Shown piece by piece: positions 5,458 through 59,334 of a stretch of 64,000 nucleotides of DNA (position 1 is the stretch's first letter; each line of letters opens with the position of its first letter). The notes below the pieces were generated by a model. That model ran no database searches. It worked only from the letters and a program-made list of their open reading frames with translations, and was not told where the DNA came from. The position numbers and the translations under genes are program-made. Origin of the DNA: Fibrobacter succinogenes (GTDB taxonomy: Bacteria > Fibrobacterota > Fibrobacteria > Fibrobacterales > Fibrobacteraceae); assembly GCA_902762795.1 (NCBI GenBank), contig CACWPM010000006.1:1-64000 (forward strand), written 5' to 3'.

Positions 5458-6867
5458 ATGAGCTTCGGTAGAATTTTTGCCAAAACTCTAGCAATCTCGG
5501 GCATTGCGGCATTGACTTCGTTTGCCTCGGGGACCTCGACAAGCTCCGAAACGATTAAAAATAATTCAGATTCCCATCCTCCGCTCTCGATGGCGTTTCT
5601 GCCTTATTCATCAACAAACGAATCATCATCTTCTATAAGCATTAGCTCTTCAGCGAATATTTCAAGTTCGTCCGAAATTTTCATTATATCAGCAGAGGAT
5701 CTCGCAAGTTCATCCGCAAATGCACCAATTGAATCGAAAGAACCAACAACCTCAAGTTCCTCCGAAAATCATGTAGAGTGCAGTTCATCAGCAACGTTTG
5801 CGAAAGAAAGGCCTAATCCATATAGTCTTCCCGATAAACTCATGCCTTTGTGGAATTCCATGACCATGCGACAAAAAGCAGCCCAAATGATCATGGTGTT
5901 CCTCACCTCACCGCAATTCATTATCGAAAATGAAATCGGCGGCGTGCTCATCACAGGCAAACATCTCCGCGAAGCGGACAGCTATCTGCAGAGAATGGCA
6001 GAAATAGACAGCAGCCTAAATATTCCGCTTTTCGTTGCAACCGACCAAGAAGGCGGTCTCGTCAACCGATTAGCATCGTATTCCGACCATTGGCGTAATA
6101 CCCCAAGCGCCCGCGAAATGCGCCGCATGGATTCCACGCACATACACACGCTAGCAAATCAAATCGGACATACGCTAAAAGACATCAAAATAAACATGAA
6201 CCTAGCCCCCGTCCTAGATCCATCCAAGGATTACCGCGAATCCAATTCCTTTATGGAAGAGAGCCGTCGCTCGTGGGGTCACGACACGTCAAATGCTTAC
6301 AAAGTAAGAGCTTTCGTCAATGGCATGCACGATAACGGCATCATCTGCGTTTCAAAACACTTCCCCGGTTATGATTCCTGGACTAACAGCGATCTTCAAA
6401 TCGCCATCAGCGCCTCGCCCAAAGAAAAAATCGAGCAAAACGTTTCTTTTTTCAAGACACTCGCAAACGATATTCCCGTCACGATGATGTCGAGTGTGCA
6501 TTTTTTGCGAATTTCAAGCCGCCCAGCCGTCTTCGATGCAAGCATCGTAAAAATGGCACGTCGCGGTTTTCCGGACATGGTCATGCTCACGGATGACCTC
6601 TGGGGCACATCACTTCGCGCCTGGGCAAGCGGCAAGACACAAATTCCACCGCGCAAGACCTACTCGGACAAAGACTTCAAGCGCCTCATCACCACAATCA
6701 TCGATGCAGGCAACGACATTCTCATGATTTCTTACACGTCCAAGGCAAAGGACATGCTCGACATCATGATGGACCTTTGTGACAAAAGTTCAAAATACAA
6801 AAAACGCATCGAAGAATCCGCCGCCCGAATCCTTAAGCTGAAGTACAAAGCAGGAATTTTGAAGTAG
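5458..6867 (+). CDS. Exported GH3-family (NagZ-like) glycoside hydrolase with Ser-rich linker
   Basis: The 469-aa protein begins 6 bases after topB. It has an N-terminal hydrophobic segment (likely signal peptide, residues 5-25), a serine-rich linker (about 25-120) typical of Fibrobacter exported proteins, then a single GH3 barrel. Family signatures are TDQEGGLVNRL at about 194, KHFPGYD at about 299 and the nucleophile region LTDDLWG at about 377-383. NagZ-type enzymes use an Asp-His dyad following KHFPGHG as acid/base; here GHG is GYD and no His follows within the loop (SWTNSDLQ). The nucleophile Asp is kept but the acid/base partner is missing or moved, so activity on N-acetylhexosaminides is doubtful. 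No strong RBS is seen; translational coupling to topB is likely. Confidence 0.8.
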   Translation: MSFGRIFAKTLAISGIAALTSFASGTSTSSETIKNNSDSHPPLSMAFLPYSSTNESSSSISISSSANISSSSEIFIISAEDLASSSANAPIESKEPTTSSSSENHVECSSSATFAKERPNPYSLPDKLMPLWNSMTMRQKAAQMIMVFLTSPQFIIENEIGGVLITGKHLREADSYLQRMAEIDSSLNIPLFVATDQEGGLVNRLASYSDHWRNTPSAREMRRMDSTHIHTLANQIGHTLKDIKINMNLAPVLDPSKDYRESNSFMEESRRSWGHDTSNAYKVRAFVNGMHDNGIICVSKHFPGYDSWTNSDLQIAISASPKEKIEQNVSFFKTLANDIPVTMMSSVHFLRISSRPAVFDASIVKMARRGFPDMVMLTDDLWGTSLRAWASGKTQIPPRKTYSDKDFKRLITTIIDAGNDILMISYTSKAKDMLDIMMDLCDKSSKYKKRIEESAARILKLKYKAGILK

Positions 6868-6903: not shown

Positions 6904-7208
6904 TTACGTACTAACGGGTCACAAAAAACAAAGTTAGTACGTAGTCCTCAAGCGCTTACTTTATCCGTTACGTACTAATCAGCCCATTTCACACCAATCA
7001 GTACGTAAAAAAAGCAACAGAACCGACCCTTAAAATGTTTTTTGGAGGCACAAACAACCTTCCAAGCCCCATTTTTTAGAAACCGTCCGCAAAAAAGCCA
7101 AATTTACGTACTAAGAGGCACCAAAAAGGCATCCCAGTACGTAGCAAACAAAATAACTATTTAGAGATTACGTACTAACAGGCGTAAATTGCCCGTTCCA
7201 GTACGTAA
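6904..7208. repeat. Array of eight alternating 9-bp sites with exact 32-bp period (spaced inverted repeats)
   Basis: TTACGTACT occurs at 6904, 6968, 7104 and 7168. Its reverse complement AGTACGTA(A/G) occurs at 6936, 7000, 7136 and 7200. Within each block of four (6904-7008, 7104-7208) neighbouring sites are exactly 32 bp apart with alternating orientation, and the two blocks are offset by exactly 200 bp. Sequence between sites is mostly not conserved. The pair at 6905-6915 and 6933-6943 extends to an 11-bp perfect arm. The array lies between two convergent genes, so it is not an ordinary promoter. A 32-bp period is close to three helical turns, suggesting a protein-binding array (inference). 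Confidence 0.9.
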
Positions 7209-7240
7209 ACCATCTCGCGCGTCCGCAATTTACCGCGCGT

Positions 7241-7341
7241 TCCGCAACAAGCAAGGTAAATTTCAAGCGTATTCTGCAACAAGCCGCGCATTTCAAGCGT
7301 ATTCCGCAACAAGCCGCGCATTTCAAGCGTATTCCGCAAGC
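7241..7341. repeat. 30-bp tandem repeat, about 3.3 copies
   Basis: A unit starting TTTCAAGCGTATTCYGCAAC and ending AAGCCGCGCA repeats with exact 30-bp period at 7261, 7291 and 7321; a degenerate copy precedes it and the last copy is cut short. It begins just beyond the 32-bp site array and ends about 35 bases from the stop codon of the minus-strand exonuclease gene. Because 30 is divisible by three it keeps reading frames open on both strands, but no coding signal is seen. Confidence 0.9.
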
Positions 7342-7373
7342 GCCCTCTTTCCGCAACGGCAATTGACCAACAG

Positions 7374-7940
7374 CTACCTAACAAAAGCCTGTTTCTTGGA
7401 TGCGGACAAATTCACCACATTTTTCAAGACTCCCGCTTCGCCCACTTTTTCTAGAGCGCTCTTCAAAATTTCAACGGCAGCCATTGTATCGTCCAAAGCA
7501 CGGTGGTGATTAAAATCCGGAAGTCCCAGAGATTCTGTAAGTTTGTGCAGACTGTAACTCGGTTGCCCCGGAAACACCCGCCTCGCAAGCTTCACCGTAC
7601 AAAGTCTTGCCGGATTGAACTTGATGCAGCAACGCTTGAGTTCAGCGGTCATGAACCTACAATCAAACTGCACATTATGCGCTACAAAAATACGGTCTTG
7701 CAATAACGCCGACACATGCTCGGCAATCACGCCAAATTGCGGTTGTCCCTCAACCATCTCGTCGGTGATGCCCGTCAATTCACGAACAAACGGTGTAATC
7801 GGTTGTCCAGGATTCACAAGCGCATGGAATGTTTCAACAACATCGGAACCGTCCATCAGGGCGATTCCGATTTCCATTATACGATTATCATCTCCATGTC
7901 CGCCGGTCGTTTCAAGATCGACTACCGCAAATTTGAGCAA
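7374..7940 (-). CDS. DnaQ-like 3'-5' exonuclease (DEDDh)
   Basis: A 188-aa stand-alone proofreading-type exonuclease. The DEDDh residues are visible: D8 and E10 in VVDLETTGG, D93 in AHNVQFD, and His146 with Asp151 in HHRALDD. It probably trims 3' ends of DNA (polymerase III epsilon-type) or short RNA; the substrate is not deducible. The start is TTG at 7940: an in-frame TAA lies just upstream and AGGTAATG provides an RBS. That TAA is also the stop codon of the preceding gene on the same strand, so translation of the two is probably coupled. Confidence 0.85.
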   Translation of the reverse strand: MLKFAVVDLETTGGHGDDNRIMEIGIALMDGSDVVETFHALVNPGQPITPFVRELTGITDEMVEGQPQFGVIAEHVSALLQDRIFVAHNVQFDCRFMTAELKRCCIKFNPARLCTVKLARRVFPGQPSYSLHKLTESLGLPDFNHHRALDDTMAAVEILKSALEKVGEAGVLKNVVNLSASKKQAFVR

Positions 7941-58888: not shown

Positions 58889-58960
58889 GCGGCGGTAGCT
58901 CAATGGTAGAGCCTTAGCCTTCCAAGCTAATGGTTGCCGGTTCGATCCCGGTCCGCCGCT
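58889..58960 (+). tRNA. tRNA-Gly(TCC)
   Basis: A 72-nt cloverleaf: acceptor GCGGCGG / CCGCCGC, D arm GCTCAATGGTAGAGC, anticodon stem TTAGC / GCTAA with loop CTTCCAA (anticodon TCC), TPsiC arm GCCGGTTCGATCCCGGT. No encoded CCA. A terminator follows directly. Confidence 0.97.
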
Positions 58961-58963
58961 CTT

Positions 58964-58990: not shown

Positions 58991-59058
58991 GTTCCAACCT
59001 TCCATTCGGGAGGTCTTTCTTTTAGACGTTTTCAAAATTCAAAACAATTCTGAAGTTT

Positions 59059-59268
59059 GTACCTATAAAATTATCGTTTTATCCATTTTATAGGTACGAA
59101 ACCGTACAAAACAGCTTTTTTTCAATCCAGCAAAACGGAATTTTATTGAGCTCGTACCTATAAACAGCGCATAAATTCAGCTTTTATAGGTATTTTCTGT
59201 GCTTAACTTATACAAAAACCAGCAAAACGTACCTATAAAAGAGTCTGTTCTCAAGGATTTATAGGTAC
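59059..59268. repeat. Three spaced inverted repeats with GTACCTATAAA arms
   Basis: Left and right arms: 59059-59070/59086-59097 (12-bp perfect, outer 39), 59154-59164/59183-59193 (outer 40, last base mismatched), 59229-59239/59258-59268 (outer 40). Loops 15-18 bases are unrelated. Together they fill the gap between tRNA-Gly and the TonB-C lipoprotein gene. Terminators are not implied: arms are AT-rich and repeated with identical sequence. Confidence 0.9.
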
Positions 59269-59334
59269 GAAACAAAAAAAACTTCGGAACTGTCCCCCGC
59301 CATAGAGACAGGGGCGTAAAAAGTTTCACCCTTC

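Follow-up and report, generated by a model that had tools for sequence, protein, structure and literature searches.

Helically phased inverted-repeat arrays in Fibrobacter and their predicted cognate nuclease family

The window analysed here is a stretch of 64,000 nucleotides from Fibrobacter succinogenes (assembly GCA_902762795.1, contig CACWPM010000006.1). It corresponds to contig C6 of G000, a genome of the genus Fibrobacter with a size of 3.93 Mb. At positions 6904-7208 it contains an array of short inverted sites, one of a dispersed population that matches arrays adjoining genes of a family of predicted nucleases. We consider it probable that these are binding arrays for a sequence-specific nuclease dimer encoded by the same genome, a homing-endonuclease-like protein operating by the logic of REPIN/RAYT systems with unrelated parts.

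Architecture and distribution of the arrays

The array in the window is made up of eight 9-bp sites in alternating orientation, 32 bp apart, at the positions originally predicted (Table 1); in two of them (6936 and 7136) the final A is replaced by G. It is located between two convergent genes, one GH3-like (ending at 6867) and one exonuclease-like (3' end at 7374), while its cognate nuclease gene, that of the TTACGTACT array, lies outside the window (G000:C23:35782-36609). The 200-bp block duplication suggested in the original prediction does not hold, as only 27 of 69 spacer positions match between the two blocks, and the block offset of 200 bp becomes 232 bp, three helical turns more, in the orthologous array of genome G054.

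In the genome as a whole, the proposed search for pairs of sites 32 bp apart proved productive: the bipartite pattern TTACGTACT-N-AGTACGTA is present 44 times in forward and 38 times in reverse orientation, with no occurrence of the reversed-pattern control. When one mismatch per arm is tolerated, 58 copies of the unit TTACGTACT-N23-AGTACGTAA are found in 14 regions (the window and loci L031-L043), one of which contains two arrays, 1.1 kb apart with a gene in between, giving a total of about 15 arrays. The two half-sites of a unit are 32 bp apart in 75 of 83 units and 31-33 bp apart in all. Unit centres are separated by 63/64, 73/74, 84/85, 94/95, 135/136, 146/147, 157 or 168 bp, which are whole helical turns. 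The phasing of the inter-unit gaps at 10.5 bp has an R of 0.89 in this genome (n = 43), 0.97 in G001, 0.82 in G054, 0.86 for gaps of more than 70 bp alone (three genomes, n = 58) and 0.96-0.98 in other subfamilies, the gaps being partly non-independent because some arrays are of common ancestry. With such gaps the sites face one side of the helix, as anticipated for a multimeric DNA-binding protein.

The middle of the units is A/T-rich and the flanking DNA richer in G/C; in G045 the unit middle is frequently a run of G or C. Many arrays contain, in one inter-unit gap, a conserved stretch after the half-site that resembles CACACAAA(T/G)TAAC and confers polarity on the array (loci L033, L047, L034, L035, L045 and L049; for example L033:9924-9945). 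Spacer homology exceeds the shuffled maximum in 42 of 105 pairs of arrays from this genome, and many of the dispersed arrays share a common ancestry.

The arrays are intergenic and their flanking genes are convergent in 11 cases and divergent in two (p = 0.022), so a role as promoter-operator is rejected for most solo arrays. No common theme is evident among the neighbouring genes; similar genes downstream of two arrays look like those of TIGR02147 regulators (L031:10111-10959 and L032:10160-10993). A CRISPR array, already discounted in the original prediction, is rejected, as the 9-mers are inverted and the unit centres 63-168 bp apart, whereas CRISPR repeats are direct, all point the same way and are regularly spaced. 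The partition locus that had also been entertained is not supported, although no search for a ParB-family partner was made: there are about 15 arrays, patchily distributed among relatives and tied to a nuclease gene.

Conservation, gain and loss

At five pairs of orthologous arrays the site columns are identical in 71/72, 70/72, 70/72, 53/54 and 54/54 positions (97-100%), while spacer identities, in the same order, are 0.70, 0.51, 0.56, 0.48 and 0.43, mostly with little change in length. Had the sites changed as fast as the spacers, so few changes in them would have a probability of 1e-10 to 1e-20. The sites are under purifying selection, and the earlier proposal that selection acts on site and helical phase, and not on the intervening DNA, is borne out.

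Absence of the array from close relatives with conserved flanks had been put forward as an argument against that proposal. Such absence is indeed seen at the window locus: G001, G067, G004, G014 and G063 have retained the two flanking genes but lack the array, while G054 has it. Arrays have been gained or lost between species. Their absence in relatives does not equate to a lack of function; where kept, they are strongly constrained.

The predicted partner nuclease family

Genes of one protein family are repeatedly adjoined by arrays, the first instance being located between the two arrays of locus L038. The family is multi-copy, with up to seven matches per genome, and the copies within one genome are divergent and distinct, that is, not recent. 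The protein, of about 275 amino acids, has a variable N-terminal region followed by a predicted C-terminal PD-(D/E)XK / EDxHD-like domain, and gives no match to Pfam and no credible match to NCBIfam. Residues R166-S167-K168-S169-E170, P203-D204-F205, E219-H220, G222 and Y229 vary little or not at all, a pattern that would be expected of an active PD-(D/E)XK-type nuclease. In the structure predicted from a shallow alignment, the nuclease domain alone is confident. Structurally, this domain is matched best by the catalytic domain of the homing endonuclease I-Bth0305I (Z 8.6, 90 residues, 2.5 Å, VIA-align), with Bax1, TnsA (Z 8.0) and Vsr ranked nearby. A Foldseek search with the predicted domain returned nothing at E <0.05, so that the fold is assigned chiefly from the residue pattern. 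The PADLOC candidate defence protein PDC-S68, of about 1200 amino acids, has at its C-terminus the same nuclease domain as protein P0001 (residues 148-273), and so do plasmid proteins that carry the annotation AAA-family ATPase or RecQ helicase, though not necessarily at that end.

When arrays were sought beside 71 family genes without a preset motif, 45 genes were found to have an upstream and/or downstream array of at least three phased units; shuffled controls gave 0-1 units. Most genes are flanked on one side, and a minority (L103, L105, L106, L126, L142 and L167) on both. In L142, from G045, the family gene is located between two array copies (1-208 and 1718-1925), which form a 208-nt direct repeat of 91% identity.

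Pairing of half-sites and protein subfamilies

Half-site versions differ between genomes of the genus (TTACATACT, TTACGGACT and TTACGTACT), and those beside family genes include TTACGTACT, TTACATACT, GGGCGTATA, GTACCTATA, TGGGTACCA, GGTTACTAA and GTACCTGCT, among others. An inner AAA is common to nearly all of them and the variable part comprises 6-8 nt. At least 17 distinct half-sites are paired with proteins. Proteins with the same half-site are on average 69% identical (permuted mean 48%, maximum 59%), and nearest-neighbour proteins share their half-site in 14 of 18 cases. Across all half-site distances a Mantel test gave no information (rho 0.05), most pairs probably being saturated, whereas the comparison of proteins with the same and with different half-sites is clear. 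Half-site and protein subfamily form cognate pairs.

Gene and arrays also occur together. At least six TTACNNAC units are present in 18 of the 42 genus genomes with a family gene and in none of the 19 without (p = 0.00027), the latter never containing more than one such unit. Likewise, GTACCTAT arrays are found in all four genomes with the gene of that subfamily and in none of four with other subfamilies only. Solo arrays of the matching half-site are scattered through gene-carrying genomes; one survey of dispersal used genomes picked for having the gene and shows dispersal, not association. The window alone could not have revealed that the arrays have a cognate nuclease family or that each of its subfamilies has its own site code.

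The exact pattern extends to metagenome-assembled genomes (MAGs) of Lachnospiraceae, Eubacterium and Oscillospiraceae, at loci with Firmicutes-like genes, and family genes are present in three of four MAGs tested outside Fibrobacter (rumen Firmicutes). Several of the Firmicutes genes have arrays of their own with other half-sites, for example five copies of TTACTTACT, or TTGGACTA on both sides. Full-length members were found in 2 of 149 genomes in a spread sample of the phylum of the first MAG. Viral contigs contain no array; the nuclease domain alone turns up there, in matches covering part of the protein. Among phage records, one of 4.2 kb, from human faeces, contains a nearly full-length relative that is not annotated.

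Features of the window

The window contains a second solo array, belonging to another subfamily and located downstream of a tRNA-Gly gene (58889-58961). Its cognate nuclease gene is G000:C37:7037-7741, and the CGTACCTATAAA system to which it belongs, the second system of this genome, comprises 35 exact units at about 14 loci, this one included. Directly after the first array, at 7228-7349, 30-bp tandem repeats (ATTTCAAGCGTATTCCGCAACAAGCCGCGC) are present; a 30-bp tandem repeat likewise adjoins the array and family gene of L142.

Table 1. Array features in the 64,000-nucleotide window.
Feature	Coordinates	Strand	Sequence or remarks
Solo array, four phased palindromic units	6904..7208	.	half-site type TTACGTACT
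Unit 1	6904-6912 ... 6936-6944	.	TTACGTACT ... AGTACGTAG
Unit 2	6968-6976 ... 7000-7008	.	TTACGTACT ... AGTACGTAA
Unit 3	7104-7112 ... 7136-7144	.	TTACGTACT ... AGTACGTAG
Unit 4	7168-7176 ... 7200-7208	.	TTACGTACT ... AGTACGTAA
Second solo array, other subfamily CGTACCTATAAA/TTTATAGGTACG	59058..59269	.	units 59058-59098, 59153-59194, 59228-59269

Comparison with known systems

REPIN/RAYT systems combine REP doublets with a REP-associated tyrosine transposase (RAYT), an enzyme related to those of IS200/IS605, and their repeats form single-strand hairpins (PMC3116915, PMC8049555, PMC8266576). As in these systems, short inverted-pair repeats are here dispersed between genes, a distinctive cognate protein adjoins its own repeats, and the two differ together between lineages. 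In contrast, the cognate protein is not a RAYT (HUH Y1 transposase), having no Pfam match, PD-(D/E)XK-type residues and a predicted nuclease domain; there is no hairpin of the repeat pair, with neither pairing inside the half-sites nor compensatory changes; and the units are grouped in arrays of 3-8 on helical phase. TIGR-Tas (PMC12045711) also has a nuclease gene adjoining an array of short repeats with variable spacers, in which the repeat differs by locus. Its marks Nop, RuvC and HNH were not found in the partner family by a Pfam family search, and unlike in TIGR-Tas the spacing is in helical turns, not a fixed RNA length, and solo arrays are present genome-wide. The arrays and their nuclease belong to neither system, although they resemble REPIN/RAYT in outline.

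With the EDxHD homing endonuclease I-Bth0305I, its best if borderline structural match, the family may share a Vsr/PD-(D/E)XK-like catalytic domain. It differs from such enzymes in that there is no intron and no homing site shown, targets are arrays of several units, and many solo arrays are located in its own genome. BIMEs, the enterobacterial REP mosaics, are also of alternating orientation, located between genes and several per locus; here 9-12 bp alone are conserved, the helical phase is strict and there is a cognate nuclease.

Proposed mode of action

We infer physical binding, a dimer geometry, autorepression and cooperative assembly on one helix face, as follows. Each 41-bp unit would be gripped by one dimer, its inverted half-sites being three helical turns apart, with the nuclease domains meeting over the middle of the unit. 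Because the gaps between units are whole helical turns, several dimers would be on the same face, assembling cooperatively. The array beside the nuclease's own gene would act as an operator through which the protein represses its own expression, much as I-TevI does; solo arrays elsewhere in the genome would be related copies bound in trans. The protein encoded on G000:C23, of 276 amino acids, would bind all eight half-sites of its array in the window cooperatively, and not the CGTACCTAT arrays. Precedents for the dimer and autorepression steps are provided by I-Bth0305I, which forms a dimer on a target just short of 60 bp, and by I-TevI, which represses its own gene by binding upstream of it, where it does not cut efficiently (PMC3943268).

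Most likely, but unproven, is that solo arrays arose and persist in REPIN/RAYT-like fashion, a cognate nuclease present in a single copy having spread these short palindromic elements or kept them in place. That present-day use at each locus keeps their sites intact is likewise the most likely, if unproven, explanation, and the strength of the constraint at individual loci suggests that the cell, too, makes use of them.

Several observations weigh against a binding array maintained by its own nuclease. The N-terminal region is poorly predicted, with a predicted local distance difference test score (pLDDT) of about 30-60, and the structural match of the modelled nuclease domain is borderline. 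About 26 of the 71 family genes have no array of at least three units by the same method, and three genomes (G019, G060 and G071, MAGs that are 71-95% complete) contain 8-10 TTACNNAC units with no matching gene seen. The sole close pair of occupied and empty genomes, G073 and G053, differs by an array-bearing segment of 402 bp with an 8-bp direct repeat (GCGATTCG) on its flanks, which could be a deletion as well as an insertion. Site conservation at each locus is stricter than a purely selfish REPIN-like model predicts.

Alternative explanations

The nuclease-like protein might instead be a domesticated genome-wide regulator or chromosome organiser. The arrays, dispersed long ago, would then serve the host as roadblocks to transcription, as domain boundaries or as BIME-like sites. 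This is a possible, if unlikely, explanation; it agrees with the strong purifying selection at each locus and with the mostly convergent, intergenic position of the arrays away from promoters, but catalytic-type residues, which a pure binder does not need, are invariant, the distribution is patchy, with arrays gained or lost between species while flanks stay intact, and the neighbouring genes have no evident common theme. Improbable, too, is that the arrays are the ends or remnants of insertion sequences mobilised by a TnsA-like transposase, in which solo arrays would be comparable to solo long terminal repeats or miniature inverted-repeat transposable elements. The six genes flanked on both sides, the direct repeat in G045 and the presence of TnsA among the structural matches speak for it; most genes, however, have a one-sided array, gene copies of the same genome are too divergent to be recent, and clean element ends were not found.

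Sequestration or addiction, in which arrays would be a DNA antitoxin or sponge holding a dangerous nuclease, perhaps released on infection, would account for conserved active-site residues alongside many high-quality sites in the same genome, as well as for the domain shared with PDC-S68. We consider it quite improbable: with about 15 arrays present, a single half-site lost from one of them ought to make little difference, but the sites are almost fully conserved (97-100%), and no linked antitoxin or defence gene was seen. An RNA or single-strand hairpin element, or an RNA-guide array of the REP-hairpin, TIGR or CRISPR type, is hardly credible. It is brought to mind by a nuclease gene adjoined by inverted repeats whose spacers vary, but inside the 9-mers most positions have a complementarity of 0.19-0.28, which is roughly the expected level or less. 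In the 22 units in which one arm deviates, the other arm never carries the corresponding change. The quantised 10.5-bp spacing fits duplex DNA, orthologous spacers drift freely, and Rfam covariance models gave no match at the gathering threshold in ten array loci, including a 3-kb stretch with the window array.

Implications

On balance, we are inclined to regard the arrays and their nucleases as genome-resident elements of a new class. In this view the nuclease family, found in two or more bacterial phyla, is diversifying, each subfamily having a private DNA code (6-8 variable nt plus the inner AAA) and maintaining a population of helically phased arrays across the host genome. Such elements would parallel REPIN/RAYT at the level of double-stranded DNA, and their nucleases would form a natural set with long, mutually orthogonal sites. 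The open-access literature on the motif, PDC-S68 and related concepts holds no description that we could find; subscription papers and preprints were outside its scope and priority is not certain.

If this is true, gut bacteria contain a previously undescribed nuclease-plus-repeat system. With at least 17 half-sites paired with proteins, its protein-DNA code would be readable without experiment, from sequences. The family could be a source of compact nucleases whose palindromic targets are long and orthogonal. REPIN/RAYT systems pose the puzzle of why a bacterium retains a single-copy nuclease together with dispersed repeats cognate to it, and this puzzle could then be tested in a protein family that is unrelated.
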